A program made the translations under genes and the position numbers. From Porphyromonas pasteri (GTDB taxonomy: Bacteria; Bacteroidota; Bacteroidia; Bacteroidales; Porphyromonadaceae), in the NCBI RefSeq assembly GCF_014647755.1, contig NZ_BMPU01000002.1:124001-188000 (forward strand): DNA of 64,000 nt, in the 5' to 3' direction. The notes below the pieces were generated by a model. The model ran no database searches. It was not told the DNA's origin and saw nothing but the letters and a program-made list of their open reading frames with translations. Shown here piece after piece: positions 7,799 to 63,406 of this stretch (the first letter of the stretch is position 1; each line of letters starts with the position of its first letter).

Positions 7799-7875
7799 TC
7801 TACGTACGTAGACGATAGGACAAGGCACGTGGATTTTAGAGCGCTCGTACGTGGACAAATGATCCACGTACGTAG
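7799..7875. repeat. Palindrome array, TACGTA family, four units (reverse orientation)
   Basis: Read on the minus strand, the 13-bp unit CTACGTACGTGGA occurs four times. The plus-strand unit ends are 7811, 7832, 7854 and 7875, so the steps are 21, 22 and 21 bp. The outer two units are nearly perfect (12/13 and 13/13); the inner two are weaker (8/13 and 9/13). The same steps occur in the arrays at 33258 and 43172. The array lies between the polA-cof terminator and the purH promoter. Confidence 0.8.
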
Positions 7876-8127
7876 ACCGAACTTTTCCCATAGATGAGCC
7901 AAAGAATCTCTCCTCAAGGGACGAAGTTAGGAGTAGTGCTCTGCGATAGTTCTCGCGCTGAATGAAGGCATCTATCCGTATAGATGTAAGCGACTTACCC
8001 GACGAGGAGGACGACAAAACAAGCGGGGGTAGTAGGGCCGAAGTAATAGTGTGATTCGGGGCATACTCACGGGCAAGATAGAAGCCCTCACGATACGCGT
8101 GAGATAGGTACACTGCGGGAAAATCGT
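7876..8127. other. Gene-free stretch between the array and the purH promoter
   Basis: No credible gene. A perfect small hairpin CATCTAT-CCGT-ATAGATG sits at 7969-7986. A minus-strand open frame across 7712-8113 runs through the palindrome array and has no family resemblance, so I leave it out. Confidence 0.5.
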
Positions 8128-8135
8128 TATTTTTG
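8128..8135 (+). promoter_or_regulatory. Probable -7 box for the purH-mre operon
   Basis: TATTTTTG matches TAnnTTTG about 95 bp before the purH ATG. The leader then contains a hairpin (8152-8186) with an outer AGCAC/GTGCT and inner CCTCC/GGAGG pairing. No known purine riboswitch core is recognisable. Confidence 0.45.
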
Positions 8136-8229
8136 TGTGGCTTAGTAGCTTAGCACGGATAGCCTCCGAGTGGAGGTGAGGTGCTGATCGCCGTATTTTA
8201 CATCACACTTTGACTTAGCTTAGTAACTC

Positions 8230-9747
8230 ATGGAGAAGGTCATACGTCGAGCACTTGTCTCGGTATACCACAAGGAAGGATTAGCAGAAATCTTAAAGCT
8301 CCTGCACGAGCAGGGCGTAGAGTTCGTCTCCACGGGGGGCACCAGCACCTTCATCGAAGGGCTCGGGTACCCTTGTGTTGCCGTCGAAGATCTGACTAAG
8401 TATCCCTCGATGCTCGGGGGGCGCGTCAAGACCCTTCACCCCGCTATCCAGGGCGGTATCCTCGCCCGCCGCGGACACGAGACCGACCAAAAGGAGGTCC
8501 TCGAATACGGCCTATCCCTCATCGACCTGGTGATCGTAGACCTCTATCCCTTCGAAGCTACGGTAGCCTCGGGCGCCAGCGAAGAAGATATCATCGAGAA
8601 GATCGACATCGGCGGTATCAGCCTCATCCGTGGGGCAGCGAAGAACTTCGAGGACGTCGTCATCATCCCTTCGCAGGCAGACTATGCTACACTGCTTGAG
8701 ATCCTCCGTGAGCGTGGTGCTCGCACGACCCTTGAGGAGCGTCGCCACTTTGCTCGCCGCGCCTTCGCTGTGAGCTCGCACTACGACTCGGCTATCTTCC
8801 GCTACTTCGACGGCGAGGAGCGCTCGGCTCTCCGCCTCACGGCAGACGAAGCTAAGCCCCTGCGCTACGGCGAGAACCCCCACCAGAAGGGCGTCTTCTA
8901 TGGCGACCTCGACCGCTACTTCGAGCAGCTCCACGGCAAGGAGCTCTCCTACAACAACCTCCAGGATGTCGAGGCAGCTGTCTCACTCATCCAGGACTTC
9001 TCTGAGCCCACCTTCGCCATCCTCAAGCACAACAACGCTTGTGGCTGCGCCTCTCGCCCCACCCTCCTCGAGGCTTGGACGGATGCGCTGGCAGGTGACC
9101 CCGTCTCTGCCTTCGGTGGCGTGCTCGTAGCCAACCGCCCCATCGACGTGGCGACGGCGCATGAGATCGACAAACTCTTCCTCGAGGTGCTCATCGCTCC
9201 CGACTTCGAAGCCGAGGCGCTCACCATCCTCGAAGGCAAGAAGAACCGCATCCTCCTGCGTCAGAAGGAGGCCATCGATGCCCGCTGGTCTTACCGCTCG
9301 ATGCTCGGTGGTGTGCTGGCTCAGGAGACCGACCGCGCAGTAGAGACTACGGCTGAGATGAAGCCCGTTACTAAGGTAGCACCCACGGCTGAAGAGCTTA
9401 CGGATCTGGTCTTCGCGACCAAGCTCGTCAAGCACAGCAAGAGCAACGCTATCGTCCTCAGCAAGGGCGGTCAGCTCATCGCCTCAGGTGTCGGACAGAC
9501 CTCACGTGTCGATGCGCTCAAGCAAGCCATCGAGAAGGCACGCCACTTCGGCTTCGACCTCAAGGGAGCTGTACTGGCGAGCGATGCCTTCTTCCCCTTC
9601 GACGACTGCGTCACCCTCGCTGCCGAAGCTGGCATCACCGCTATCGCTCAGCCTGGTGGCTCAGTACGTGACGCTGACAGCATCGCCGCTGCAGATCGCC
9701 TGGGCGTAGCTATGGTGATGACGGGGGTGCGTCACTTCAAGCACTAA
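8230..9747 (+). CDS. purH: Bifunctional AICAR transformylase / IMP cyclohydrolase
   Basis: Catalyses the last two steps of IMP synthesis. The N-terminal MGS-like cyclohydrolase domain (about 1-190) shows FVSTGGTSTFIEGLG and MLGGRVKTLHPAIQGGILA. The transformylase domain includes LRYGENPHQKGVFYG and VKHSKSNAIVLSKGGQLI. At 505 residues it is near the usual length. It is the first gene of a long plus-strand run: mreB follows after 26 bp, an arrangement common in Bacteroidota. Confidence 0.96.
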   Translation: MEKVIRRALVSVYHKEGLAEILKLLHEQGVEFVSTGGTSTFIEGLGYPCVAVEDLTKYPSMLGGRVKTLHPAIQGGILARRGHETDQKEVLEYGLSLIDLVIVDLYPFEATVASGASEEDIIEKIDIGGISLIRGAAKNFEDVVIIPSQADYATLLEILRERGARTTLEERRHFARRAFAVSSHYDSAIFRYFDGEERSALRLTADEAKPLRYGENPHQKGVFYGDLDRYFEQLHGKELSYNNLQDVEAAVSLIQDFSEPTFAILKHNNACGCASRPTLLEAWTDALAGDPVSAFGGVLVANRPIDVATAHEIDKLFLEVLIAPDFEAEALTILEGKKNRILLRQKEAIDARWSYRSMLGGVLAQETDRAVETTAEMKPVTKVAPTAEELTDLVFATKLVKHSKSNAIVLSKGGQLIASGVGQTSRVDALKQAIEKARHFGFDLKGAVLASDAFFPFDDCVTLAAEAGITAIAQPGGSVRDADSIAAADRLGVAMVMTGVRHFKH

Positions 9748-9773
9748 GAATACGAATCGACTAATAGATAAGC

Positions 9774-10793
9774 ATGGGACTATTTTCCTTTAGGCAGGAG
9801 CTGGCGATGGACCTGGGTACTGCCAATACCATTATCATCAAGGACGACAAGATCGTACTCGATGAGCCCTCAGTAGTAGCCTTCGACAACCGCACGGGCG
9901 AGATGATCGCCGTCGGGACCAAGGCCCGCGAGATGTACGAGAAGGGCAACGCCAACATCCGCACGATCCGCCCCCTGCGCGAAGGAGTCATCGCAGACTT
10001 CGATGCCGCTGAGCATATGATCCGCGGGATGATCCGTATGATCAGCCGCCGCCGTGGGTGGTTCACCCCCTCACTGCGCATGGTCGTCTGTATCCCCTCA
10101 GGGAGCACGGAGGTAGAGATCCGTGCCGTACGCGACTCCAGCGAGCACGCTGGTGGCCGTGACGTCTACATGATCTACGAGCCTATGGCAGCAGCTATCG
10201 GCGTCGGCATCGACGTCCTCGCCCCCGAAGGCCACATGATCGTGGACATCGGTGGTGGTACGACGGAGATCGCTGTCATCTCGCTCGGTGGTATCGTCGA
10301 GGATCAGTCCATCGACACCGCTGGCGACGAGCTGACGCAGGACATCATGGACCACATGCGCGAGAAGCACCAGATCAAGGTCGGGGAGCGTACCGCTGAG
10401 CAGATCAAGATCCAGGTAGGTGCTGTCTACGCCGACCTCGACGAAGCTCCCGCAGACTTCACCGTCTGGGGTGCGAACATGATGGACACCATGCCCCGCA
10501 AGGTAGAGGTCAACTATCGTGAGATCGCCGAGTGCCTCGACAACTCGATCGGCAAGATCGAGAGCGCTATACTTCGCACTCTCGAGGCTACGCCTCCCGA
10601 GCTCTACGCCGACATCGTCGCCAATGGTGTCGTCCTCACCGGTGGTGGTGCCCTCCTGCGTGGTCTCGACAAGCGCCTCTCTAAGCGCTTCGGTCTTGAC
10701 TTCAAGATCGCTGAGAACCCCCTGCACTCTGTAGCTCTCGGTACGGGCATTGCGCTGAAGAACATCCACAACTTCAACTTCCTCTTCCGCTAA
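9774..10793 (+). CDS. mreB: Rod-shape-determining actin homologue MreB
   Basis: Actin-like filament protein that guides lateral wall synthesis on the inner face of the membrane. The 339 residues start MGLFSFRQELAMDLGTANT with the phosphate-1 motif. The phosphate-2 motif is in HMIVDIGGGTTEIAVISLG and the adenosine motif in VVLTGGGALLRGLDKRL. It heads the mreB-mreC-mreD-mrdA-rodA elongasome block; the intact block suggests an elongating rod or coccobacillus. Confidence 0.96.
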   Translation: MGLFSFRQELAMDLGTANTIIIKDDKIVLDEPSVVAFDNRTGEMIAVGTKAREMYEKGNANIRTIRPLREGVIADFDAAEHMIRGMIRMISRRRGWFTPSLRMVVCIPSGSTEVEIRAVRDSSEHAGGRDVYMIYEPMAAAIGVGIDVLAPEGHMIVDIGGGTTEIAVISLGGIVEDQSIDTAGDELTQDIMDHMREKHQIKVGERTAEQIKIQVGAVYADLDEAPADFTVWGANMMDTMPRKVEVNYREIAECLDNSIGKIESAILRTLEATPPELYADIVANGVVLTGGGALLRGLDKRLSKRFGLDFKIAENPLHSVALGTGIALKNIHNFNFLFR

Positions 10794-10814
10794 GCCCCGT
10801 AGCCTACTCCGCCC

Positions 10815-11684
10815 GTGGATAAGCTCTTAGAGTTCCTCCAGAAGCATAGACACTGGTTCGTCTTCCTCATCTTGGAGACGATCGCTCTCGTCACGTACCT
10901 AAGTGGCTCCCTCTACTCGAGGAGCCTCGGCTGGTACGCGACGAGTGCCGTCTTTGGGCGGGTCAATGAGCTGATGACCGAGGGCTGGAGCTATGTAGGC
11001 CTGCGCCCTCGCAATGAGGAGCTGCTGAGGGAGAATGCGCGTCTACGTACGGCCTATACCCTCCTGGCACGTCAGATGCAGGACGCCGAAGCCCACGGCC
11101 TGCTGCCTCGTCTGCACGCTACCGACAGCCTCCCCATCGATCCCTCGGCAGTCATCATCGCCCGAGTGGTCAATCGTGTGACGCACACCAGTGAGGTCTA
11201 CTACACCATCAACAAGGGGCGCCGTGACGGCATCGAGACCGACATGGGCGTGATGAGTGCCTCGGGCGTCGTCGGCGCCGTGATGGCGGTCTCCGACCAC
11301 TACGCGCTCGTCATCCCCGTCCTCAACCCGAAGATTCGCCTGGCATGTACCCTCCTCGGGCAGGAGGTCAGTGGCACCCTCACAGCCTCCTCGAGCCCGA
11401 ATGCCAATGAGGCGATCCTCAGCAACGTCCCCCCACACGCCCACCCCCAGATCGGTGACACCATCACCACGAGTGGCTACTCCTACCTCTTCCCCGAGGG
11501 GATGATGGTCGGGACGATCGCCGACTCCGTCCCCGCTCGCGTCAAGGGCAGCGCTGGGACCTTCGCCAACTATCCTGTGCACCTCTCCACGGACTTCCAG
11601 GGTCTACGCTACGTCTACGTGATCCGTGAGAAGCCCACCCATGAGGTACGCGCCCTCGAAGACTCGATCAGACCCAATGAATAG
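10815..11684 (+). CDS. mreC: Rod-shape-determining protein MreC
   Basis: Periplasmic scaffold of the elongasome, anchored by one N-terminal membrane helix (about residues 13-31). A coiled-coil region around 60-85 precedes the beta-rich MreC domain. The start is a GTG at 10815 (DKLLEFLQKHRHWFVFLIL), 21 bp after mreB. The stop overlaps the mreD start by 8 bp, which supports translational coupling. Confidence 0.9.
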   Translation: MDKLLEFLQKHRHWFVFLILETIALVTYLSGSLYSRSLGWYATSAVFGRVNELMTEGWSYVGLRPRNEELLRENARLRTAYTLLARQMQDAEAHGLLPRLHATDSLPIDPSAVIIARVVNRVTHTSEVYYTINKGRRDGIETDMGVMSASGVVGAVMAVSDHYALVIPVLNPKIRLACTLLGQEVSGTLTASSSPNANEAILSNVPPHAHPQIGDTITTSGYSYLFPEGMMVGTIADSVPARVKGSAGTFANYPVHLSTDFQGLRYVYVIREKPTHEVRALEDSIRPNE

Positions 11685-12201
11685 CTCCACCTATCTGCGC
11701 TTCATCCTCTTCGCCCTCCTTCTGGTGGCCCTGCAGGTGTGGGTACTGAGTCCCATCGCCCTCTTCCGTGTGGCGACCCCTTACCTCTATCCCTTCGTGC
11801 TGCTGCTCCTGCCCGTAGACACGAACCGCACCGTACTCTCGATCTCGGGCTTCGCCGTAGGGATGCTCATCGATATCTTCAGCCTCACGCCTGGCCTACA
11901 CGCCTCGGCCTTCACGCTGACAGCCTTCATGCGCCAGCCTATCCTCTCACTGCTCACGGACAAGAACACGATACCGCACGCCCTGCCCCTCTTCCCCACG
12001 CTACGTGGAGGCTCGGTGATGCTCATCACGCTGCTCCTGCTCGTGCACCATGTCACGCTCTATATCCTCCAGGCCGCAGGGATGCGCATGGGGGCCCTAC
12101 ATATCATCATCAGCTTCGCCTCGGGCTATGCCTTCTCATGGGTGCTGGCGGTGATGACCCTCTTCTTCTTCGGCACGGGAGAAGGGGCTCGCTCGAAGTG
12201 A
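11677..12201 (+). CDS. mreD: Rod-shape-determining protein MreD
   Basis: Small polytopic membrane protein of the elongasome. From the ATG at 11677 it has 174 residues with five or six hydrophobic segments (starting SSTYLRFILFALLLVALQVW). Upstream in-frame codons lie inside mreC and add residues of mreC-overlapping composition, so the ATG that overlaps the mreC stop is preferred. Assignment depends partly on position between mreC and mrdA. Confidence 0.85.
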   Translation: MNSSTYLRFILFALLLVALQVWVLSPIALFRVATPYLYPFVLLLLPVDTNRTVLSISGFAVGMLIDIFSLTPGLHASAFTLTAFMRQPILSLLTDKNTIPHALPLFPTLRGGSVMLITLLLLVHHVTLYILQAAGMRMGALHIIISFASGYAFSWVLAVMTLFFFGTGEGARSK

Positions 12202-12210
12202 TGCTCTCCT

Positions 12211-14070
12211 ATGGTCAACGACGAGCTCTTCCGTAGACGGTGGCTGATCATCGGCCTCACCTTCGCCATCGTCACCATCTTCATCATCCGCCTCTTTACC
12301 CTGCAGGTAGCCAGCAATGACTACAAGCGCCGGGCGGAGAATAATGCCTACTTCATCCTCTCTACCATCCCCTCGCGTGGCGTCATCTACGATCGCAAGG
12401 GACAGCTCCTTGTGGCCAATCGCCCCATCTACGACCTGATGATCGTGAACCACGAGGCGAAGGGAAAGCTCGACACCACACTACTTGCAAATACGCTTGG
12501 CCTACCTCGCGAGGAGATCGTCCAGAAGCTCACCGCCGTACGTGACCGCAGTATCAATCGTGGCTACAACCCCTACACCCCGCAGGTCTTCCTCTCACAG
12601 CTTGAGCCCGAGGAAGTAGGACGCTTCGAGGAGCAGCTGTATAAGTTCCCAGGCTTCTCGGTGCGCTCCCGTACCGTCCGACAGTACAACTACCACAATG
12701 CCGCCCACCTCTTGGGCTACCTCTCCGAAGCCAGCCTTACCGACCTCGAGCGTGACAGCACGATCATGCGAGGGGACTTCGTCGGACGAAGCGGGGTAGA
12801 GCGCACCTACGAAGAGGTACTGCGTGGCATCAAGGGTGAGGAGATCTTCTACCGCGATGCCCGTGGCCGTATCCAAGGACGTCTGGATGGCGGTTCGCAC
12901 GACCGTGCTCCCGTCCCAGGGCGTGACCTCACACTCTCCATCGATGCTGGCCTGCAAGAGCTGGGCGAGCGCATGATGCGCGGTAAGCGTGGTGCTATCG
13001 TCGCCATCGAGCCCGAGACGGGTGAGGTCCTTGCCCTCGTCACGGCACCGAACTACGATCCCGAGCTCCTCGCAGGCAAGAGCAAGGGGACCAACCACCG
13101 CATGCTCGAGGAGACCTTCGGTAAGCCCCTCCTCAACCGCGCGATCCAAGGGAACTACCCTCCAGGCTCAACCTTCAAGCCCTCGCAGGGAGCTATCTTC
13201 CTCGAGGAAGGAGTCCTCACACCCTCCACAGCGCTTGCCTGTCATCACGGTTACCCACCACTGGGCAACCGACCCAAATGCCACAGCCACGGCTCGCCCA
13301 TCTCACTCATCCCCGCACTCTCCACCTCGTGTAATGCGTACTTCAGCTGGGGCCTGCACTTCATGCTCGACGACCGCCGCTATTACCCCTCGGCAGCCGT
13401 CGCTCTGGAGCACTGGAAGCAGCGTATGGTCTCCCTCGGCTTCGGCTACCGCCTCGGTATTGACCTGCCGGGTGAGAAGCGCGGATATATCCCCAATAGC
13501 GGCGTCTACGATAAGTTCTACAAGGGCGCATGGAACGGCCACACCATCATCTCCATTGCCATCGGGCAGGGGGAAGTGCTCGCCACGCCCCTGCAGATAG
13601 CGAATCTCGCTGCCCTCATAGCCAACCGCGGCTACTACATCCGCCCGCACGTCGTGCACTCCATCGGCGGTATGCCTCTGGACTCGATGTACCACAACCA
13701 CCAGCCCTCAGGGATCTCCCGCGAGAACTGGGAGTATATCGTCGCAGGGATGGCTGGCGCTGTCACGGGCGGTACGTGTCGTGCTGCGAACTTCGCTCCT
13801 GGTGAGATCGAGGTATGTGGTAAGACCGGTACGGCAGAGAATCCCCACGGTAAGGACCACTCGGCCTTCATCGGCTTCGCGCCTCGCTCCAAGCCACGCA
13901 TCGCTGTCTCGGTCTATGTCGAGAACGGGGGCTTCGGGGCGCAGTTCGGTGTACCTATCGGCCGTGTGATGATGGAATACTACCTCCGTGACGGCAAGCT
14001 CTCGGGCAGTGGCGAGGCCATCGCCTCCTCGATGGAGCACCGCAGTATCTCCTACCTCAACGATATATAG
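12211..14070 (+). CDS. mrdA: Penicillin-binding protein 2 (elongation transpeptidase)
   Basis: Class B transpeptidase that cross-links peptidoglycan during elongation. One N-terminal membrane helix (about 11-31) anchors it. The non-catalytic dimerisation domain occupies about 50-230. The active-site motifs are SxxK in GSTFKP (Ser320, Lys323), SxN in STSCN (Ser373, Asn375) and KTG in CGKTGTAEN (Lys538). The length (619) is normal. It works with RodA, whose gene follows after 8 bp. Confidence 0.95.
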   Translation: MVNDELFRRRWLIIGLTFAIVTIFIIRLFTLQVASNDYKRRAENNAYFILSTIPSRGVIYDRKGQLLVANRPIYDLMIVNHEAKGKLDTTLLANTLGLPREEIVQKLTAVRDRSINRGYNPYTPQVFLSQLEPEEVGRFEEQLYKFPGFSVRSRTVRQYNYHNAAHLLGYLSEASLTDLERDSTIMRGDFVGRSGVERTYEEVLRGIKGEEIFYRDARGRIQGRLDGGSHDRAPVPGRDLTLSIDAGLQELGERMMRGKRGAIVAIEPETGEVLALVTAPNYDPELLAGKSKGTNHRMLEETFGKPLLNRAIQGNYPPGSTFKPSQGAIFLEEGVLTPSTALACHHGYPPLGNRPKCHSHGSPISLIPALSTSCNAYFSWGLHFMLDDRRYYPSAAVALEHWKQRMVSLGFGYRLGIDLPGEKRGYIPNSGVYDKFYKGAWNGHTIISIAIGQGEVLATPLQIANLAALIANRGYYIRPHVVHSIGGMPLDSMYHNHQPSGISRENWEYIVAGMAGAVTGGTCRAANFAPGEIEVCGKTGTAENPHGKDHSAFIGFAPRSKPRIAVSVYVENGGFGAQFGVPIGRVMMEYYLRDGKLSGSGEAIASSMEHRSISYLNDI

Positions 14071-14078
14071 CGCCCGCC

Positions 14079-15551: not shown

Positions 15552-15631
15552 GGCAAGAGTGTGCCGCTCTGGATGCCGTAGACGCACGTATCCCCCGCCA
15601 CCATCTCGTGGCACCAACACATAGACATACG

Positions 15632-16512: not shown

Positions 16513-16539
16513 CCCCGCCCACGAAGGGCAGGCGCTACG

Positions 16540-18712: not shown

Positions 18713-18813
18713 ACCAGTACTGGTCAGTGATCCGAGCAGTACTGGTCGACGCGCGAAGTAGTAGTGGTCACTATATGTTACCAGTACTGGTCCGATCGCT
18801 GACCAGTACTGGT
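18713..18813. repeat. Palindrome array, CAGTACTG family, five units
   Basis: Units modelled on ACCAGTACTGGT start at 18713, 18735, 18757, 18780 and 18802, so the steps are 22, 22, 23 and 22 bp. Units 1, 4 and 5 are perfect, unit 2 has one change, and unit 3 (AGTAGTAGTGGT) is degenerate. Spacer 1 and spacer 4 are complementary at 8 of 10 positions. The array is framed by GGGGAAAAGTAACC on the left and TTCGCATCAGCCCCTCC on the right; similar flanks frame the array at 63306 in reverse. Confidence 0.9.
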
Positions 18814-19502: not shown

Positions 19503-19613
19503 GAATGATATTTTAGGAGCGCACATTCGAGTTAGCCTGACAGGAGATTGACATAGCTGAATACATCGGATCACTGCCGAACCTACACATAGCCGACCCA
19601 GGGCTTTCACTCC

Positions 19614-19680
19614 TGATCCTCCGCCATCGCCTCCACGAGATCTACTACGAGCGCCTATCCTGGAGTCAGATCTCCTAAGC
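19614..19680. repeat. Second copy of the recG 3' end
   Basis: This stretch repeats the last 67 bp of recG (18574-18640) with about four changes, including the stop codon. It abuts and overlaps by a few bases the end of the PepSY gene. Together with the copy at 18852 it brackets the lipoprotein gene as a direct repeat. Confidence 0.8.
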
Positions 19681-20844
19681 CTTACTTCCGCCCTTAGCCT
19701 TACGCTTCTTCCCCCACTTACGCTGGTAGAAGATATAGTAGCCCGTCAGCGGGAGCGATGCACCGAAGAGTGCCGCTAAGAAGTAGCAGATACGCGTGAA
19801 GAGACCGCCCCAAGCTCCCGTGTGAATTGAATAGATCCAGCCGCGGAGCTTCTTGTCTCGCTTGACCTCACGATAAGCCTTGTACTCGGTCATCTGCCCC
19901 GTCTTTTTGTTGAAGCGAAAGCTATCCGCAGCACGGCTATTGCCCAGCCCTGCAAGGGGGACTTCGACCTCCCCATCCTTGACCGTGATCTCTGTATAGT
20001 CTGCTTCGGAGACCTCTATGACATACTCCACGACCTCTTCCCAATAGATATAGGAGGCAGGGAGCTTGGCCTGCTCGGCGCCCTCCTCACGGGGGGCATC
20101 CTTGCTCTTATCCTTCTTGGAGCCCTTATCACCCTTGCCCGCCTCGGCCATCTCGGCACCAAAGACCTTATAGAAGCCCGTGCGATACCACTCGAAGGAC
20201 CACGTAAGCCCCGTCATAGCCATCGCCAAGAGGAGTACGAAGACATACACCCCACCGACCGTATGCAGGTCAGTGAAGAGGCGCTGACGCCCGTGACCAA
20301 GCGAGATCTTCAGGCGCTTCCCTACGCCCTTGAGCTTCTTCGGCCACCAGAGGAAGAGCCCCGTGAGGAGGATGAAGACGAAGAGGAGGGTACTTGTCCC
20401 CACGATGACGCGCCCCCAGAAGATCCCTTCGCTATCCGGCTTCATACTATCGAGTAGCCAGCGATGTAGCTCGCGTACCGTAGTGAAGAAGGGGAGGCGC
20501 CCGCTCTGCCCCACGATCTTTCCCGTATAGGGATCGACAAGGACTCCCGCACGACGAGGCTTAGAGAGCCCCACGGTATAGGCGCGGCGGAAGTCAGAGG
20601 GTATGGTGACGCTCGTGATCTGCACGCTATCGGGCGTCTCGCGGGCGACCCGCTCCAGGAGGGACTGGAGGGAGAGTCTCTGCATCTTGCGCACGGGTAT
20701 CGTATAGCTATCGTGACGAACCAACTCGGTGATTTCCTTCTCGAAGACGAGCAGAGCCCCCGTGAGGCAGGTCGTCATAATGATAAGCCCAAAGGGCAGG
20801 GAGAGCCACAGATGGAGCTTCTTGAAGAGTTTGCGTACAGTCAT
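19675..20844 (-). CDS. PepSY-associated membrane protein
   Basis: Inner membrane protein of the PepSY_TM family, often found near iron or heme uptake genes in Gram-negative bacteria. From the ATG at 20844 it has 389 residues: helix 1 (LHLWLSLPFGLIIMTTCLTG), a PepSY-like periplasmic segment (YTVGLSKPRRAGVLVDPYTG), helix 2 (VIVGTSTLLFVFILLTGLFL), helix 3 (GGVYVFVLLLAMAMTGLTWS), a Lys/Glu-rich loop (about 235-265) and a final helix. A start 29 codons further upstream is open, but the family normally begins just before helix 1. Conserved histidines in KLHLW, LHRWLLD, DLHTVGG and IHTG could bind heme, which is an inference. Confidence 0.8.
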   Translation of the reverse strand: MTVRKLFKKLHLWLSLPFGLIIMTTCLTGALLVFEKEITELVRHDSYTIPVRKMQRLSLQSLLERVARETPDSVQITSVTIPSDFRRAYTVGLSKPRRAGVLVDPYTGKIVGQSGRLPFFTTVRELHRWLLDSMKPDSEGIFWGRVIVGTSTLLFVFILLTGLFLWWPKKLKGVGKRLKISLGHGRQRLFTDLHTVGGVYVFVLLLAMAMTGLTWSFEWYRTGFYKVFGAEMAEAGKGDKGSKKDKSKDAPREEGAEQAKLPASYIYWEEVVEYVIEVSEADYTEITVKDGEVEVPLAGLGNSRAADSFRFNKKTGQMTEYKAYREVKRDKKLRGWIYSIHTGAWGGLFTRICYFLAALFGASLPLTGYYIFYQRKWGKKRKAKGGSKA

Positions 20845-20981: not shown

Positions 20982-21050
20982 TATATTATACCTTTTCCAC
21001 CCCCTACTGATAGAGCCGAGCTGGAGGAAGCTATACAGGAGGATAAATCA

Positions 21051-21150
21051 TCCTATATGGATCGCTGAGTCAACCTATATAGGTCCGTGAAGCGATCTAT
21101 ATAGGTCGGCGTGATGACCTATATAGGTTGACTCAGCGACCAATATAGGT
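21051..21150. repeat. Palindrome array, CTATATAG family, five units
   Basis: Units modelled on ACCTATATAGGT start at 21051, 21073, 21095, 21117 and 21139, exactly 22 bp apart. Units 2 and 4 are perfect. Spacer 1 (CGCTGAGTCA) is the exact reverse complement of spacer 4, so with units 2 and 4 the array forms a long imperfect inverted repeat. Flanks are CAGGAGGATAAATCA on the left and TTCGCACCACCCCCCTCC on the right; both recur in reverse around the array at 63104. Confidence 0.92.
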
Positions 21151-21201: not shown

Positions 21202-21325
21202 AGCAATAGTCGTTTGCGAGCAAACCAGTAGTGATACGAGGTGCGAACCAGTAGTTGTTTGGATGCAAACGAATAGTTGTTCGCACCTCGAACTTATAGT
21301 TGTTTGCATACAGACGAGTAGTTGT
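21202..21325. repeat. Degenerate array, TAGTTGT family, six units
   Basis: Units of the form ACnAnTAGTTGT start at 21202, 21224, 21247, 21269, 21292 and 21314, so the steps alternate 22, 23, 22, 23, 22. Spacers 1, 3 and 5 have a TTG....CAA-like self-complementary form (spacer 5 ends CAG). Spacers 2 and 4 are complementary to each other at 10 of 11 positions. It sits directly after the CTATATAG array, between the divergent PepSY and queA genes. Confidence 0.7.
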
Positions 21326-28220: not shown

Positions 28221-28321
28221 ACCACTACTGGTCGCTGACGGAAGCAGTACTGGTCACCGCGCGAAGCAGTACTGGTTGGTAATAGTGACCAGTACTGGTC
28301 AGACGACGAAGTAGTACTGGT
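28221..28321. repeat. Palindrome array, CAGTACTG family, five units
   Basis: Units start at 28221, 28243, 28265, 28288 and 28310, steps 22, 22, 23 and 22 bp, the same as at 18713 and in the same orientation. Unit 4 is perfect; the others have one or two changes. Spacer 2 (CACCGCGCGA) matches spacer 2 at 18747 in 8 of 10 positions. The outermost flanks AAAGCGACCA and TGGTCGCTTT are perfect complements. The array lies between the susC promoter and the terminator of the next gene. Confidence 0.88.
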
Positions 28322-33104: not shown

Positions 33105-33204
33105 AGTAATAGTGGTTTGCCCTTGGACCAATAGTCGTTCGGATGCAAACCTATATTGGTCGCTGAGTGAAGCTATATAGGTCACTGCGACGACCTATAT
33201 TAGT
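33105..33204. repeat. Hybrid palindrome array: TAGTnGT-type then CTATATAG-type units
   Basis: Five units start at 33105, 33127, 33149, 33171 and 33193, exactly 22 bp apart. The first two (AGTAATAGTGGT, ACCAATAGTCGT) resemble the degenerate family at 21202; the last three (ACCTATATTGGT, AGCTATATAGGT, ACCTATATTAGT) belong to the CTATATAG family. Spacer 2 (TCGGATGCAA) matches spacer 3 of the array at 21202, and spacer 3 (CGCTGAGTGA) matches spacer 1 of the array at 21051 at 9 of 10 positions. This looks like a recombinant array. Confidence 0.8.
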
Positions 33205-33257
33205 TCATTGCCTCGCGTAAGGATAAAAGTTGCGAACGAGTGGCAGATAAGTTTGGA

Positions 33258-33334
33258 CTACGTACGTGGATCTAATATCTACGTACGTGGATATTTGGAT
33301 TTACGTGCCTAGTCTTTAAATCTACGTGCATAGA
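33258..33334. repeat. Palindrome array, TACGTA family, four units
   Basis: Units modelled on CTACGTACGTGGA start at 33258, 33279, 33301 and 33322, steps 21, 22 and 21 bp. The first two are perfect; the third (TTACGTGCCTAGT) and fourth (CTACGTGCATAGA) are degenerate. The left flank AGTTTGGA matches AGTTCGGT beside the reversed array at 7799. Confidence 0.85.
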
Positions 33335-33575
33335 CAGAGGAAAAACACTACGGGAAGGCGCTTTTTTCTTCACGAGTAGGACACTTTTCCCTCCGCAGGA
33401 TAAGAGGAATACTTGTGATAAGGCGAAGGGAAAAGCGTATCACTTCGGAGAGGCATATCGGAGAGCCGCGTGCGATGCCTTAGCACTCTAAATAGAGGGC
33501 AGAACTCTCGGCAACAGTCTCCAAAGAAGGACTATACTCCCCTACTCTATCTCGTAGAAAGGTACGGATACAAAG
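33335..33575. other. Gene-free stretch with one long hairpin
   Basis: No gene recognised. CTTTTCCCTCCGC (33384-33396) pairs with GCGAAGGGAAAAG (33423-33435) at 12 of 13 positions around a 26-base loop. Confidence 0.4.
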
Positions 33576-43171: not shown

Positions 43172-43248
43172 CTCGGTACGTGGATCTTAGGACTACGTAG
43201 GTGGATGATAGGATCTACGTGCAGAGTCTATAAATCTACGTACCTGGA
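43172..43248. repeat. Palindrome array, TACGTA family, four units
   Basis: Units modelled on CTACGTACGTGGA start at 43172, 43193, 43215 and 43236, steps 21, 22 and 21 bp. All four are imperfect (CTCGGTACGTGGA, CTACGTAGGTGGA, CTACGTGCAGAGT, CTACGTACCTGGA), so this looks like an older copy of the arrays at 7799 and 33258. Confidence 0.75.
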
Positions 43249-54953: not shown

Positions 54954-54987
54954 CACGTCCCGACAGTCAGATGACTGCCGGGACGTG
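54954..54987 (-). terminator. Terminator of glgP
   Basis: CACGTCCCG pairs with CGGGACGTG around an inner CAGTCA/TGACTG stem, 31 bp after the glgP stop. The U-run is weak. Confidence 0.65.
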
Positions 54988-55017
54988 CTGTATAAAGTGA
55001 TGGGGTAGGGGAGCGCC

Positions 55018-57594: not shown

Positions 57595-57655
57595 AAATAT
57601 ATTCCTTCTTCTAAGCAATCGGAGACAGTCGGTCGACTATCCTTTTTTGATGGTG

Positions 57656-57663
57656 CAAAGGTA
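57656..57663 (-). promoter_or_regulatory. glgP: -7 box of glgP
   Basis: TACCTTTG on the minus strand, about 60 bp before the ATG at 57594. Confidence 0.5.
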
Positions 57664-57673
57664 CTGATAATAA

Positions 57674-57722
57674 ACCACTGCCCCTTACTTTACGACAAGA
57701 TAGTAAAGCAAGGGGTAGTGGT
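57674..57722 (-). terminator. Terminator of cca
   Basis: A 20-bp stem with two mismatches (57674-57693 with 57703-57722) and a nine-base loop lies 29 bp after the cca stop. The minus strand continues TTATTATC. Confidence 0.8.
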
Positions 57723-57750
57723 GTCTCTGTGCAGTGGAGTGGGGGAGCGC

Positions 57751-59226
57751 CTATTTCTTCGCAGGGGTGAGCCCGAGAGCGGCTGCTTCGCGGAGCATAA
57801 ATTCGTAGGCGGGCTCGTATTCGTTGGGGATCGTGCCGTCGAGGATAGCGTCCTTGATAGCGTCCTTGATGAGCCCTACCTCGCGGCAAGGCGTGAGGGC
57901 GAAGGTATCCATGATGAGCTGTCCCGAGATGGGCGGCTGGAAGTTGCGGATGCGATCCTTCTCCTCGATGTCGACGAGCTTCTGACGAACGACCTTATAG
58001 TTGTCGAGGTACTTGCGTACGCGCTGGGGGTTCTTGCTCGTGATGTCGGCTTCGACGAGGAGCATGAGGTCGTCGATATCGTCTCCCGCCTCGAAGAGCA
58101 GACGGCGCACAGCGGAGTCCGTCACGCCCTCATCGACGAGGGTGGCGGGGCGCATGTGCAGATCGACGAGCTTCTCCACGTAGTGCATCTTGTGATCAAG
58201 CGGTAGGCGGAGGCGGCGGAAGATCTTCGACACCATCTTCATGCCGATGAAGTTGTGGTTGTGGAACGTCCAGCCGAGGCGCTGGTCAAAGCGCTTGGTG
58301 CGGGGCTTCCCGATGTCATGGAGGAGTGCTGCCCAGAGGAGCCAGAGGTTCATTTCGTGCCCAGGGCGGGCGGTGGAGAGTGCCTTGGCCATATTGTCCA
58401 CGACCTTGTAGGTGTGGGTGAGATTGTCCTTGTGGCCGATGCCGTCACGCGTCTCGGCCCCCTTGAGCTCGAGGAGCTCGGGGAAGACGAGCTTCATCAG
58501 ACCGGTCTTCTCGAAGAGCTCGAGGCCGATGGATGGGCGAGGGGAGAGGAGGATCTTATTGAACTCTGTGGCGATGCGCTCGGCGGAGATGATCTCGATG
58601 CGCCCAGCATTTCGCCCGATAGCAGCGAAGGTGTCGGGGTCGATGAAGAAGCCGAGCTGCGAGGCGAAGCGTATGGCACGCATCATGCGCAGCGGGTCGT
58701 CGCTGAAGGTGATGTCGGGATCGAGTGGCGTGCGCAGGGTGAGCGCCTCCATGTCGTGCAGGCCGTCGAAGGGGTCGACGAGCTGACCGAAGCGGTCGGC
58801 GTTCAGGCAGATGGCCAGAGCATTGACCGTGAAGTCACGGCGCTCCTGATCTTCCTCCAGCGTACCATCCTCGACAAAGGGCTTGCGACTGTCGGGTGTG
58901 TAGCTCTCGCGACGAGCGCCTACGAATTCGATCTCCAGGTCGCCCTGCTTGACCTGTGCCGTGCCGAAGCGAGCGAAGACCGAGATGTGTGCACCACGCC
59001 CGAGGCGCCCCGCTACAGCCTGTGCCAGGTCGATGCCGCGCCCGATGGAGACGATGTCGATATCCTTCGAGGGGCGGTAGAGGAGGAGGTCACGCACATA
59101 GCCCCCGACGATGTAGGCGTCTACACCGAGTTCGTCCGCGGCTTCGCCGATGAGGTGAAAGAGGGGGGTGTCTACCTTGTCGTAGATCTCATCTTCCTTT
59201 TCGTAGAGCAAGTCTTCGCTGAGCAT
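57751..59226 (-). CDS. cca: tRNA nucleotidyltransferase / poly(A) polymerase family with HD domain
   Basis: Class II nucleotidyltransferase that adds or repairs the CCA end of tRNA, or adds poly(A). The catalytic start is AYIVGGYVRDLLLYRPSKDI followed by DIVS with the metal-binding DxD. RRDFTVNALAICLN is the second conserved motif. An HD domain follows (DGIGHKDNLTHTYKVVDNMA and WAALLHDIGKPRT). The 491 residues fit the HDIG-type branch common in Bacteroidota. CCA addition is more likely than polyadenylation, but sequence alone does not decide. Confidence 0.9.
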   Translation of the reverse strand: MLSEDLLYEKEDEIYDKVDTPLFHLIGEAADELGVDAYIVGGYVRDLLLYRPSKDIDIVSIGRGIDLAQAVAGRLGRGAHISVFARFGTAQVKQGDLEIEFVGARRESYTPDSRKPFVEDGTLEEDQERRDFTVNALAICLNADRFGQLVDPFDGLHDMEALTLRTPLDPDITFSDDPLRMMRAIRFASQLGFFIDPDTFAAIGRNAGRIEIISAERIATEFNKILLSPRPSIGLELFEKTGLMKLVFPELLELKGAETRDGIGHKDNLTHTYKVVDNMAKALSTARPGHEMNLWLLWAALLHDIGKPRTKRFDQRLGWTFHNHNFIGMKMVSKIFRRLRLPLDHKMHYVEKLVDLHMRPATLVDEGVTDSAVRRLLFEAGDDIDDLMLLVEADITSKNPQRVRKYLDNYKVVRQKLVDIEEKDRIRNFQPPISGQLIMDTFALTPCREVGLIKDAIKDAILDGTIPNEYEPAYEFMLREAAALGLTPAKK

Positions 59227-59253
59227 CCTTTCTTAGTTGGGTTTCTTCGGCTG

Positions 59254-59261
59254 CAAAGATA
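59254..59261 (-). promoter_or_regulatory. cca: -7 box of cca
   Basis: TATCTTTG on the minus strand, 28 bp before the cca ATG. Confidence 0.5.
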
Positions 59262-59299
59262 CGGGTTTCTTGCGTGGGGAGTGCGGTCACCCACGCTTT

Positions 59300-59347
59300 G
59301 CGAAAGAAAAACATCGGGTGCGTTTCACGTGGAACCCGCACCCGATG
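59300..59347 (-). terminator. Terminator of maa, with a parS-like loop
   Basis: CATCGGGTGCG (59312-59322) pairs perfectly with CGCACCCGATG (59337-59347). The minus strand continues TTTTTCTTTCGC, a good U-run. The loop holds the parS-like sequence at 59322-59335. Confidence 0.8.
59322..59335. other. parS-like site 1
   Basis: GTTTCACGTGGAAC differs by one base from the palindrome GTTCCACGTGGAAC at 60019 and by one base from the core GTTTCACGTGAAAC of the B. subtilis ParB site. It lies inside a terminator hairpin, so the match could serve both roles. Confidence 0.4.
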
Positions 59348-59393
59348 CCCTCTCGCGCTTTCGCGCTTTCGCGCGCGTACGTATATAATATGC

Positions 59394-59981
59394 TTAGGGC
59401 TCGATGTCGTGGAGTACGCGATCGGCGTCGGTGATCTCGCGAAGCACACGGCAGGGATTGCCAACGGCGATGACGCCTGCAGGGATGTCGCGTGTGACGA
59501 CGCTGCCTGCTCCGATCACGGCGCCTTCGCCGATGGTGATGCCGCCGAGGATCGTCACCGAGCCGCCGATCCACACGTTGTCACCGATCTTCACGGGCTT
59601 ACCTTGCTCGTAGCCTGTGTTGCGCTCCTCGGCGAGTAGCGGATGGGTTGGGGTGTAGATGCTGACGTTGGGGCCGATGAAGACGTGGCGGCCGATGTCG
59701 ATACGTCCCGCATCAAGCGCGGTGAAGTTGCTGTTGACGAAGCTGAAGTCCCCGATGTGGACATTCGATCCGTAGTCAAAGAAGATGGGAGGTACGAAGT
59801 GACATCGCTCACCCATTGTGCCGAGGAGCGAGTGGATGATTTCGTTGGCTTCTTCGTGTTGGTCGGGGCGCAAGGCGTTGTATCGCTGGATGAGGTCTTG
59901 TGCTCGCAGTCGCTCCTCGTGGATCTCAGCGTCGATGGCGCAGAAGTATAGCCCTGCTTGGCGTCGCTCTCTCTGGGTCAT
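59394..59981 (-). CDS. maa: Maltose/galactoside O-acetyltransferase family protein
   Basis: Left-handed beta-helix acetyltransferase using acetyl-CoA. The 195 residues begin TQRERRQAGLYFCAIDAEIH, the family's helical start. Hexapeptide repeats follow (FSFVNSNFTALDAGRIDIG, KIGDNVWIGGSVTILGGI, IGAGSVVTRDIPAGVIAVG). The catalytic histidine is in TPTHPLLAEERNTGYEQ. The true substrate may be any small sugar. It is downstream of dtd and uvrC, separated from dtd by 94 bp that contain a parS-like site. Confidence 0.88.
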   Translation of the reverse strand: MTQRERRQAGLYFCAIDAEIHEERLRAQDLIQRYNALRPDQHEEANEIIHSLLGTMGERCHFVPPIFFDYGSNVHIGDFSFVNSNFTALDAGRIDIGRHVFIGPNVSIYTPTHPLLAEERNTGYEQGKPVKIGDNVWIGGSVTILGGITIGEGAVIGAGSVVTRDIPAGVIAVGNPCRVLREITDADRVLHDIEP

Positions 59982-60017
59982 AGGGTGGGGTGGTGATGTG
60001 TGGGTGGGGTGAGTGAG

Positions 60018-60033
60018 TGTTCCACGTGGAACG
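60018..60033. other. parS-like site 2
   Basis: TGTTCCACGTGGAACG holds the perfect 14-bp palindrome GTTCCACGTGGAAC (60019-60032). This equals the ParB-binding site of Pseudomonas and differs by two bases from the Bacillus core. It lies in the gap between dtd and maa, 0.7 kb from site 1. No other CACGTG in the window has this context. Confidence 0.55.
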
Positions 60034-60075
60034 TACCTCTGTTTTCTTCGCTTTCTTGTGTGTGCGCTTCGCTGT

Positions 60076-60531
60076 TTACTCGCGCGCCTTGCTGTCGATC
60101 CAGATGGTCACGGGGCCGTCGTTCGTGAGAGATACCTGCATGTCGGCGCCGAAGCGACCCGTGCCAATGGGGCGCCCGAGTCGCTCCTCAAGGGCTCGAA
60201 TGACCTCGTCATAGAGGGGCTCGGCGACCTCAGGGCGGGCGGCACGGATGTAGGATGGGCGGTTGCCTTTCTTCGTCTCCGCCATGAGGGTGAACTGCGA
60301 TACAGCGATGATATCCCCACCGACGTCGAGGATGCTGCGGTTCATCACCCCGTCTTCGTCGTCGAAGATACGCAGCTGTGTAGCCTTCTTCACGAGGTAC
60401 TCGATGTCCTCTGCGGTGTCTTCGGGGGAGATGCCGATGAGGATGAGTATGCCGAGGCTGTGGCTCTCGGCGACGGCTATTCCGTCGATGTGGACGGCTG
60501 CGGAGCGGGTGCGTTGGATGAGGAAGCGCAT
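60076..60531 (-). CDS. dtd: D-aminoacyl-tRNA deacylase
   Basis: Removes D-amino acids (and glycine) from mischarged tRNA. The 151 residues match the family. The two active-site motifs are SQFTLMAET (about 78-86) and TNDGPVTIWID (about 136-146, family NxGPVT). The N-terminal RFLIQRTRSAAVHIDG is also typical. It follows uvrC by 13 bp and is probably cotranscribed with it. Confidence 0.95.
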   Translation of the reverse strand: MRFLIQRTRSAAVHIDGIAVAESHSLGILILIGISPEDTAEDIEYLVKKATQLRIFDDEDGVMNRSILDVGGDIIAVSQFTLMAETKKGNRPSYIRAARPEVAEPLYDEVIRALEERLGRPIGTGRFGADMQVSLTNDGPVTIWIDSKARE

Positions 60532-60544
60532 GGATATGAGTGGG

Positions 60545-62368
60545 TTATCCTTCGGGGTGGAAGGCGGTGTAGATGATGCGGGCCTTGGCGGGACCGATGA
60601 CGGCGGTTAGGTCGTCGAGGCTCGCGGAGGCAATGGCTTGCACGCTGCGGAAGGCCGTGAGGAGCTCGTCCTTCGTCTTCGGGCCGATGCCCTTGATGTA
60701 GTCGAGGCGCGAGGAGAGCTGGCTCTTACTGCGCTTGTCGCGGTGGAAGGTGATGGCGAAGCGGTGCACCTCCGCCTGGATCTGCTCGAGGAGACGGAAG
60801 GTAGGGCTGTGGTGACGCACGGGGATCTCGTCGAGGGTGTCCGTGCCGAAGAGGAGCCCTGCCGTGCGGTGGCGGTCGTCCTTCACCAGCCCCGCTACGG
60901 GGATGGTGAGGCCCAGCTCGGCGAGGGCTTCGCGTATGGCACCTATCTGCCCCTTACCTCCGTCGGCGAGGATGAGGTCAGGGAGACCTTCGCCTCCGGC
61001 TTCTTCGCTCAGACGGCGGTAGCGGCGTGTGACGACTTCGCGCATGGAGGCGTAGTCGTCGGGCCCTTCGACCGAACGGATGTTGAACTTCCTATAATCC
61101 TTCTTCGACGGGCGCCCGCGCTTGAAGACGACGCAGGCGGCTACGGGGTCGGAGCCTTGGATATTCGAGTTGTCGAAGCACTCGATATGTAGGGGGAGCT
61201 TGTCCAGATGTAGGAGGTCCTTCAGCTCGGTGACGATCTGCATGAGGCGCTGGTCGGGGTTGAGTCGCTCTGCACGCTTGTACTTGTCGACCTTGTACTG
61301 GCGGACGTTGCGCTCGGAGAGCTCGAGGAGCTTCTTCTTGTCGCCACGCTGGGGGATGGTGATCGTCACGCTGGCATCGTCCTGCCACCCGGGGTCGAAG
61401 GGCAGGATCAGCTCCTTGGCGTGTGAGGCGAAGCGCTGGCGTAGCTCGGTGATGGCGCTGGCGAAGAGCTCCTCGCGCGTCTCGCCCTCGATGAGGCTAC
61501 GGTACTCGATGGTATAGACCTGCGTGACCATCCCTTGGGTGAGGTGCATGAAGTTCACGTAGGTCGCGCCATCTTCGTCCTCGTCGAAGCTGAAGACGTC
61601 GACATTGTGGATGTGGTGCGGGGCGACGGTGTGCTTGACCTGATAGTTCTCGAGGTACTGAAGGCGCTCCTTGTAGATCTGCGCTTCCTCGAAGCGAAGC
61701 TCCTCGCTGAGGCGAAGCATCTCCTCGCGATAGAGGTCGATGACGTCACGGAGGTTCCCACGCAGGAGGCTCGTGATCTCGCGGATGTTGTGCGCGTAGT
61801 CCTCGGCGGTCTGGTAGCCGACACAGGGCGCCTTGCACTTCTTCATGTGGTACTCGAGGCAGACCTTGTACTTGCCCTGGGCGATCTTGTGCGGTGAGAG
61901 GTCGAGGTCGCAGGTGCGAATAGGGTAGAGGTCGCGCACCATGGCTACGGCGGCGTGCGCCATACCGACGTTGGGGTACGGGCCGAAGCGCACCGAGCCA
62001 TCGTGGGCGGGGCGGCGCTCGACGCGGACGCGGGGGAAGGGCTCGTGGCGGATGACGACCTCGGGATAGGTCTTGTCGTCCTTGAGAAGGATGTTGTAGC
62101 GGGGCTGGTGCTCCTTGATGAGGGAGTTCTCGAGGATAAGGGCCTCAGCTTCGGAGCCCACGACGACGTACTCGATACCGCGGATCTGGCGCACCAGAAG
62201 GCGGGTCTTCGAGCTGGGTACGTCGCGCTGGAAGTAGCTACTGACGCGGCGACGCAGGTTCTTCGCCTTCCCGACGTAGATGATCGTGCCCTCCTGGCCG
62301 ATGTACTTGTAGCAGCCGGGGGCTTCGGGGAGCGTAGGGAGGATCTTGCGTATTTCGTCGAGCGTCAT
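60545..62368 (-). CDS. uvrC: Excinuclease ABC subunit C
   Basis: Makes both incisions in nucleotide excision repair. The GIY-YIG domain is at the N-terminus (PGCYKYIGQEGTIIYVGKAK). A UVR motif occurs near 200-235. The RNase H-like second nuclease domain shows HIECFDNSNIQGSDPVAACV and ILADGGKGQIGA. Helix-hairpin-helix motifs close the protein (LDYIKGIGPKTKDELLTAF). The 607 residues are normal. First gene of uvrC-dtd(-maa). Confidence 0.95.
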   Translation of the reverse strand: MTLDEIRKILPTLPEAPGCYKYIGQEGTIIYVGKAKNLRRRVSSYFQRDVPSSKTRLLVRQIRGIEYVVVGSEAEALILENSLIKEHQPRYNILLKDDKTYPEVVIRHEPFPRVRVERRPAHDGSVRFGPYPNVGMAHAAVAMVRDLYPIRTCDLDLSPHKIAQGKYKVCLEYHMKKCKAPCVGYQTAEDYAHNIREITSLLRGNLRDVIDLYREEMLRLSEELRFEEAQIYKERLQYLENYQVKHTVAPHHIHNVDVFSFDEDEDGATYVNFMHLTQGMVTQVYTIEYRSLIEGETREELFASAITELRQRFASHAKELILPFDPGWQDDASVTITIPQRGDKKKLLELSERNVRQYKVDKYKRAERLNPDQRLMQIVTELKDLLHLDKLPLHIECFDNSNIQGSDPVAACVVFKRGRPSKKDYRKFNIRSVEGPDDYASMREVVTRRYRRLSEEAGGEGLPDLILADGGKGQIGAIREALAELGLTIPVAGLVKDDRHRTAGLLFGTDTLDEIPVRHHSPTFRLLEQIQAEVHRFAITFHRDKRSKSQLSSRLDYIKGIGPKTKDELLTAFRSVQAIASASLDDLTAVIGPAKARIIYTAFHPEG

Positions 62369-62413
62369 CGTGTCTTATCTGAGGGAGGTGGGGCAAAGTC
62401 GCCCCCATTACAA

Positions 62414-62421
62414 CAAAGATA
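62414..62421 (-). promoter_or_regulatory. uvrC: -7 box of uvrC
   Basis: TATCTTTG on the minus strand, 46 bp before the uvrC ATG. Confidence 0.5.
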
Positions 62422-62504
62422 AGGGAAAGATGGTGCGCTCCCGCTCGCGCGCAAGCCGTCAGCTCGTGAAGTGGCTAAAGGTGGGGCTTCTTCGCCGTAA
62501 GATT

Positions 62505-62654
62505 AGCCCTTTCGGCGGGGAGTACGGCGGGGCGCAGAGGCGCCCTAGAATGCGGGCTTGCGGAGGGAGGCATATCACTACTCGTTCGTAGTGCAGACCT
62601 ATAGTGGTTCGCGCGTCGACCTATATAGGTCGCGACCTTTAAACCAATAGAGGC
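62505..62654. repeat. Decayed CTATATAG-family array with its left flank
   Basis: Units can be seen at 62597 (ACCTATAGTGGT) and 62619 (perfect ACCTATATAGGT), 22 bp apart. Weaker units start near 62575 and 62643. The left flank (TTAGCCCTTTCGGCGGGG, then AGTACGGCGGGG and, further on, GCGGGCTTG) is shared with 63028-63085 beside the intact array at 63104. This looks like an older copy of the same element. Confidence 0.65.
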
Positions 62655-62709
62655 ACAACTCTATGCATTTCACTGGACTTTCTTCTCCCTTTTTTATTGC
62701 GGAAGTACA

Positions 62710-62967
62710 CTATTTAACATTGCGACTTTCCTCTATTAGCCTTTCTTTTGATGGCAACTTCTCCACGTTAAGAACAAAGGCTGTGGTATCATCATACACT
62801 ATAGTTAAGTATCCCTTATGTTCCCACACCTTTAAGACAGGAAGTATTCTTTCTCTTTCCCTATATATAATAGGAGGAAAGGCATCCCATGTATAAGTAG
62901 GACTATAGGCAAATGGATCATGGCAAATATAAGTTGCCAACAAACGAATGATCTTTATCCTCTTCAT
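62710..62967 (-). CDS. Small hypothetical protein between two array regions
   Basis: An 85-residue frame starting KRIKIIRLLATYICHDPF, with Lys/Arg and aromatic residues and a beta-like stretch (KGYLTIVYDDTTAFVLNV). No family is recognised and no signal peptide is clear. Support for a real gene is indirect: a good -7 box lies 56 bp upstream, and the frame is AT-rich like the accessory lipoprotein genes. The ORF is bounded on both sides by palindrome arrays, so it could be cargo or an unrelated gene. Confidence 0.45.
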   Translation of the reverse strand: MKRIKIIRLLATYICHDPFAYSPTYTWDAFPPIIYRERERILPVLKVWEHKGYLTIVYDDTTAFVLNVEKLPSKERLIEESRNVK

Positions 62968-63022
62968 TTTACTTAAATGTTATTACCTCTCCTGTTTTAA
63001 GGTAGTCCCCCCAATTTGTGGT

Positions 63023-63030
63023 CAAAGTTA
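63023..63030 (-). promoter_or_regulatory. -7 box upstream of the small ORF
   Basis: TAACTTTG on the minus strand. It overlaps the start of the flank shared by the two CTATATAG elements. Confidence 0.4.
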
Positions 63031-63103
63031 GCCCTTTCGGCGGGAGTACGGCGGGGGAGCTACGGGAGGGACAGGTGCGGGCTTGTGGATGGGGGTAGTG
63101 TGA

Positions 63104-63203
63104 ACCTATATTGGTCGGCGGGCTGACCTATATAGGTCGTCATCGCGACCTATATAGCTTCGTCGTCGGACCAATATAGGTCAGCCCGCCGACCTATATA
63201 GGT
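63104..63203. repeat. Palindrome array, CTATATAG family, five units (reverse orientation)
   Basis: Units start at 63104, 63126, 63148, 63170 and 63192, exactly 22 bp apart. Units 2 and 5 are perfect ACCTATATAGGT; units 1 and 4 are ACCTATATTGGT and its reverse complement; unit 3 has one change. Spacer 1 (CGGCGGGCTG) is the exact reverse complement of spacer 4. Flanks are GGATGGGGGTAGTGTGAA on the left and TGATTTATCTTCCTG on the right, matching the array at 21051 in reverse. Confidence 0.93.
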
Positions 63204-63305
63204 TGATTTATCTTCCTGCGGTAGGGTGGTGGTGCAAGCGGTGTCTATCATAGATAGAGCTATAGCGAAAAGCTACCACGACAAGAAGAGGAGGGGGATA
63301 TGCGA

Positions 63306-63406
63306 ACCAGTACTGGTCGCCGAAGTGACCAGTACTGGTAACTGATATCAACTAGTACTACTTCGCGCTGCGACCAGTACTGGTCAGCCGAGTGACCAGT
63401 ACTGGT
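63306..63406. repeat. Palindrome array, CAGTACTG family, five units (reverse orientation)
   Basis: Units start at 63306, 63328, 63351, 63373 and 63395, steps 22, 23, 22 and 22 bp, the mirror image of the arrays at 18713 and 28221. Four units are perfect ACCAGTACTGGT; the middle one (ACTAGTACTACT) is degenerate, as in the array at 18713. The left flank GGAGGGGGATATGCGAA and right flank GGTTACTTTCCC match, in reverse, those of the array at 18713. Confidence 0.93.

Follow-up and report, generated by a model that had tools for sequence, protein, structure and literature searches.

Phased palindrome arrays of Porphyromonas pasteri as possible BrickBuilt-like mobile elements with changeable cores

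We examined arrays of short palindromes in a 64,000-nucleotide stretch of the Porphyromonas pasteri genome (contig NZ_BMPU01000002.1, positions 124,001–188,000), hereafter the window, whose own positions serve as array coordinates. Across the array families, which differ in the core of their repeated unit (CAGTACTG, CTATATAG, TACGTA and a looser TAGT type), units are 12–13 bp and spacers 9–11 bp long. We interpret the arrays, with moderate confidence, as mobile elements similar to BrickBuilt of P. gingivalis that would carry phased binding sites for a dimeric protein, the core specificity turning over between lineages. The elements have dispersed as complete units into intergenic regions, and some lie within a miniature inverted-repeat transposable element (MITE) that has ends of IS5-family type and duplicated target sites. 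Their units are kept while the spacers drift, and in other species the step is constant at 22–23 bp and the core is different. The original prediction, made from the window alone, described eleven arrays of one design, with interchangeable cores and fixed spacing, lying between operons. All eleven exist (ten are clear and one, at 62575, is degenerate), and the same geometry recurs with other cores in Porphyromonas and elsewhere in Bacteroidales.

The window was analyzed together with other stretches of this 2.17-Mb genome, 464 kb in all. A core-blind detector, which looked for near-palindromic 12-mers that resemble each other at steps of 21–23 bp, found 35 arrays in this sample and none in Markov shuffles, thus excluding chance. 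We also counted palindrome triplets with a constant step, taking each step length between 13 and 60 bp in turn; hits in this genome fell only at 22 (28), 24 (1) and 44 bp (9). Other Porphyromonas samples gave triplets at 22 (15), 23 (12) and 24 bp (1), plus the doubles 44 and 46, and other genera of Bacteroidales at 22 bp (6) plus one hit each at 14, 24, 41 and 44. Steps of 22–23 bp and twice that length thus make up essentially all of the hits. A total of 61 arrays was counted in the 464 kb, which extrapolates to approximately 285 for the genome and is about half the number of sampled gaps of at least 130 bp. Nearly all of them were located between genes, called here as long open reading frames (ORFs) rather than with a trained gene finder, and no array of the window overlapped a long ORF, a few sitting in spurious short ones. 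All four orientations of flanking genes occurred, close to the expectation weighted by gap length, and the arrays are thus neither promoter- nor terminator-specific; the location at 3′ operon ends that characterizes intrinsic terminators was not observed. A search pattern for pairs of CAGTACTG units had 76 forward and 72 reverse matches in this genome, whereas 30 relatives (18 congeners and 12 members of the same order) had none; pairs of CTATATAG and TACGTA units gave 37 further and 71 matches, respectively, in this genome. Phage and plasmid collections contained no match to the arrays. A lone pair of ACCAGTACTGGT-type units, 22–23 bp apart, was present in a 226-kb IMG/VR viral contig (L206:10605–10636) and is likely due to chance.

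Unit number and spacing were predicted to be kept within each core family, which proved exact for the CAGTACTG and TACGTA families and loose for the TAGT type. In the sample, CAGTACTG elements have five units over 101 bp with steps of 22-22-23-22 or the reverse, so that each copy is oriented, its strand being set by the location of the 11-bp spacer; the exceptions listed are one six-unit version and one element cut by the end of a sampled stretch. TACGTA arrays have four units with steps of 21-22-21 and CTATATAG arrays mostly five at 22 bp, and the TAGT type has a looser geometry, is only loosely palindromic and mixes with CTATATAG units. The families in the sample are not variable minisatellites. 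Information content over 20 CAGTACTG elements was 1.65–1.86 bits per site in the units, ∼0.7 in the spacers and 0.24–0.33 in the outer flanks. Mean pairwise divergence of units and spacers was 0.09 and 0.54 in the CAGTACTG family (CAG), 0.26 and 0.46 in the TACGTA family (ACG) and 0.16 and 0.60 in the CTATATAG family (TAT); arrays of two other genomes, Bacteroidales bacterium SW299 and an uncultured Bacteroides (G041), gave 0.14 and 0.37, and 0.20 and 0.46. Thus, as in an operator array, the dyad-symmetric units are conserved, the spacers between them vary freely and the helical step is fixed. Spacers of CAGTACTG elements were more alike at the same position (0.54) than at different positions (0.67), which argues for spreading of the whole element. 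Units of one array were no closer to each other (0.097) than to units of other arrays (0.092–0.099), so local homogenization, including the gene conversion within arrays that had been proposed, was not supported.

Many TACGTA and CTATATAG arrays form the interior of a 526–592-bp MITE with IS5-type ends, a feature missed by the original prediction. At least 27 copies of this composite were detected, in this genome only, with the terminal inverted repeats GAGACTGTTGC/GCAATGGTCTC and with target duplications at four copies (AATAT, ATATAT, AAGGG and ATAAG) that were absent or untestable at the others. The composite has the properties of a MITE: terminal inverted repeats that match a full-length insertion sequence (IS), target site duplication, no transposase gene, dispersed multicopy occurrence and a length within 50–1000 bp. 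One complete IS5-family element, encoding a 360-residue transposase (NF033581; L267:827–2149, contig C2 of this genome at ∼288 kb), has the ends GAGACCATTGCA and CGCAATGGTCTC and is inserted into a CTATATAG unit with duplication of TATAT; it is a possible parent of the MITE. Among 23 left flanks of the MITE, 7 ended in half a CTATATAG unit, compared to 0.009 expected; insertion of IS and MITE copies into CTATATAG units, which thereby act as landing sites, is directly visible. The compact CAGTACTG element had no IS5 end, and no target duplication was seen; its arms are G-rich and C-rich and differ between near-identical copies.

Congeners shared the geometry with other cores, including GTATAC, ACCTACNGTAGGT and GGGATATCCC; each species was represented by one genome. 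Cores in oral taxon 278 (G014) were ACCTACNGTAGGT, AACGTATACGTT and CCCATGAATGGG, that in COT-239 (G013) was AACGTATACGTT, whose arrays were common to five species, and those in two further genomes were AGGGATATCCCT (G011) and AACTCTAGAGTT (G032). Arrays of P. gingivalis (G035) with the core TCTCATATGAGA at 23 bp correspond to the BrickBuilt repeat. Genomes outside Porphyromonas were sampled via RecG neighborhoods, which makes frequencies rough: TCACTNNAGTGA arrays occurred at ∼14 places in SW299 as compact elements of ∼0.11–0.16 kb, 174 ACRTACGTAYGT unit pairs were found in the uncultured Bacteroides, with some arrays inside a dispersed repeat of 0.6–0.85 kb, and Candidatus Bacteroides merdavium had AAACTGNCAGTTT arrays. 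No array was found in the 150 kb of E. coli that were tried. To see whether cores switch in place, we compared 31 paired orthologous gaps of this genome and oral taxon 278; arrays occurred in both species in one gap, in this genome only in one and in the relative only in four (P = 0.30, few cases). Arrays of this genome were present in 4 of 8 gaps at synteny breaks versus 2 of 22 syntenic gaps (P = 0.03, small numbers).

Several further observations were made in the relatives. In the sampled stretches of oral taxon 278 (L055–L059, L086 and others), ACCTAC/GTAGGT array sequence adjoins at least 15 N runs, and draft assemblies may therefore hide arrays. Arrays of AGCTATATAGCT/TCCTATATAGGA at 22 bp occurred in P. 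gingivalis, G032 and oral taxon 278 (L221, L222, L223 and L224), some of them ending near GAGACCTTTGC or a similar sequence. GTATAC arrays were found 6–7 kb apart with ORFs between them that might be mobile cargo, and another congener (G015) contained the 22-bp tandem repeats GGAAAATGTTCC and ATCTCTGAAGAT (L050:17024–17133 and L072:19448), which are non-palindromic or loosely so.

Among described elements, BrickBuilt comes closest; it is described from one species, where it was reported as a MITE containing a 23-bp minisatellite, and the word palindrome does not occur in the text of that description (PMC4596501). It resembles the arrays in being intergenic and dispersed, in having a 23-bp tandem unit with the palindromic core TCTCATATGAGA and in its IS5-type terminal repeats, which are similar to those of the MITE described here (PMC4596501). 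On the other hand, the spacer of BrickBuilt is conserved and its repeat number ranges from 1 to 22.8, whereas in our arrays each family has a set number of units, spacers vary, steps range from 21 to 23 bp by family and CAGTACTG elements lack IS5 ends. The same paper lists MITEPgRS, ISPg4, ISPg1 and ISPg9 ends that match those of our MITE (PMC4596501): the repeats GAGACTGTTGCA and GAGACCATTGCA of MITEPgRS/MITE464 and ISPg1/ISPg4/ISPg9 match the ends of the MITE and the IS in this genome. MITEPgRS nevertheless has 41-bp repeats, and the bodies of these elements are unlike that of our MITE. The statement that no repeat class of this pattern had been described thus has to be narrowed, since BrickBuilt shares the geometry, with the core TCTCATATGAGA; for the wider class, no description was found in the open-access literature, which is not proof of absence.

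Repetitive extragenic palindromic (REP) sequences and REPINs are likewise high-copy, species-specific intergenic palindromes, some of which are IS targets, but they are single or paired stem-loops of 20–40 bp, whereas here 12–13-bp palindromes stand in phased arrays. The units were internal to the MITE rather than an IS end, and no gene for the REP-associated transposase RAYT was found. A RAYT/REPIN origin was rejected, with no match to the Y1 transposase (PF01797) in this genome and one in 3 of 26 congeners. Clustered regularly interspaced short palindromic repeats (CRISPR) also have repeats parted by variable spacers of fixed length; however, CRISPR repeats are ∼21–48 bp and spacers ∼30 bp, and the arrays described here, with much shorter units and spacers, occur as tens of scattered copies, frequently within MITEs.

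Taken as BrickBuilt-like, the arrays would form the body of small, dispersed MITE-type elements, each providing four to six dyad-symmetric sites for a dimeric DNA-binding protein approximately two helical turns apart. An IS5-family transposase would move the composite in trans, the units would be retained through cooperative binding of protein dimers along approximately the same helix face, and the binding protein and its specificity would change between lineages. We also consider, more tentatively, that there may be a general Bacteroidales class in which an arbitrary, lineage-specific palindrome is set four to six times at exactly two turns by one conserved machinery. Proteins of one family, acting in DNA binding or mobility and exchangeable in their specificity, would be a candidate for this machinery, proposed with the same reserve; BrickBuilt would then be one member of the class. 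If the step is indeed constant while the core turns over, some molecular ruler (probably a protein) is at work in reading or building the arrays, and would span an order that includes major bacteria of the human gut and mouth. The array class offers bait DNA for finding this protein, with natural core variants as controls. As insertion targets, the arrays may also mark points of rearrangement.

Several points weigh against the BrickBuilt-like interpretation. Recognition by related DNA-binding proteins, as originally suggested, agrees with conserved units beside free spacers, but the dimer-binding protein is deduced from the sites and none was identified, and an element that spreads selfishly could do without a binding protein of the host. 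With 10.5 bp to the helical turn, units spaced 22 bp apart rotate by ∼34 degrees from one to the next, and they share one face of the helix only approximately. Mobility of the CAGTACTG element is suggested by its copies alone. In addition, whole arrays fold into long, very stable stems, and the CTATATAG family (9 elements) showed a weak excess of arm pairing (s1–s4, P = 0.03; U2–U4, P = 0.01).

The last two observations favor an alternative in which the arrays are long hairpin elements, the palindromes being a by-product of selection for an RNA or single-stranded DNA stem with a role in mRNA 3′ end stability, bidirectional termination or cruciform formation. In A-form RNA, 22 bp make exactly two turns, the outer arms of CAGTACTG elements are complementary by consensus (GGGG..AAAA and TTTT..CCCC), and long stem-loops have been predicted for BrickBuilt as well. 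We compared, in oriented elements, the pairing of each arm with its own partner and with arms of different elements; own-partner pairing was not in excess in the CAGTACTG (21 distinct elements), TACGTA (11), SW299 (6) and G041 (8) families. An apparent pairing deficit in some families, including G041, had appeared in an unoriented run and may reflect mixed orientation. With arm covariation absent, or weak in one family, the hairpin is not the main conserved feature. Moreover, a stem requires neither palindromic units nor units that are all alike, which, together with the lack of excess own-arm pairing, favors double-stranded dimer sites. All four flanking orientations also fit poorly with this alternative, and no Rfam family matched the window at gathering thresholds. 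We therefore regard the hairpin explanation as unlikely.

Insertions into CTATATAG units suggest another alternative, that arrays persist or multiply because IS5-type IS and MITE insert into them preferentially, as happens with some REPs. The strong excess of half-units at MITE ends and the MITE and IS copies found within CTATATAG units, with TATAT or AATAT duplicated, are consistent with this idea; there is a precedent in REPs that are IS targets (PMC1525189). However, such insertions were seen for CTATATAG only, the sampled CAGTACTG elements being intact five-unit arrays, and target preference leaves the conservation of the other cores unexplained, so that we judge this a rather improbable account of the arrays.

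A purely selfish MITE or minisatellite, with no binding protein and with units conserved merely through recent spread, has a precedent in BrickBuilt and would account for lineage-specific amplification. Yet in the same elements the spacers have diverged by 37–60% and the units have not, and other genera show an identical step with cores that are unrelated; this explanation appears improbable. Domain-restricted sites of a chromosome-organizing protein of the ParB, Noc, SlmA or MatP type would agree with the tens to hundreds of palindromic sites present per genome, but the even spread of CAGTACTG arrays along a 914-kb contig (Kolmogorov–Smirnov P = 0.80), the several unrelated cores per genome and the difference in cores between species make them very improbable.

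Within the window, all eleven predicted places were read out. CAGTACTG elements, each with five units over 101 bp, lie at 18713–18813 (minus strand, with G-run and C-run arms outside), 28221–28321 (minus) and 63306–63406 (plus); no array was found in the orthologous gap of the 28221 element in oral taxon 278. Arrays with the TACGTA core, all of four units with steps of 21-22-21 and without an assigned strand, as is the case for the remaining arrays, occupy 7800–7875, 33258–33333 and 43172–43247. The second of these is inside the one fragment of the 0.53–0.59-kb MITE that the window holds (33173–33521, minus strand), which consists of MITE body and TACGTA array joined to CTATATAG units and carries the IS5-type terminal repeat GAGACTGTTGC at 33511–33521 (minus). 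A mixed array at 33105–33204 has two TAGT-type units followed by three CTATATAG-type units at 22 bp. CTATATAG arrays are located at 21029–21150 (six units at 22 bp, the second of which is the start at 21051 originally given) and 63104–63203 (five units at 22 bp), the first and fourth spacers of the latter being reverse complements of each other. A TAGT-type array at 21202–21325 has six loosely palindromic units with steps of 22-23-22-23-22, and the degenerate CTATATAG/TAGT array at 62575–62654 has approximately three to four units at irregular steps (22, 22, 24).

Some minor features adjoin these arrays. The last 31 codons of recG are present a second time (19592–19681, 82% identical) ∼1 kb downstream of the gene, and the 18713 array sits between the two copies. 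An imperfect 27-bp tandem duplication is present at 62858–62911, between the 62575 and 63104 arrays. The pair formed by the 63104 and 63306 arrays (CTATATAG and CAGTACTG) occurs with its linker four times at 7–10-kb steps, the further copies being at ∼194, 205 and 215 kb of contig C2 of this genome. The regions between these copies have no DNA similarity, and tandem gene duplication as their cause was not supported at the DNA level. Together with three near-identical CAGTACTG elements at 71.5, 79.2 and 86.4 kb, these copies suggest local spread.

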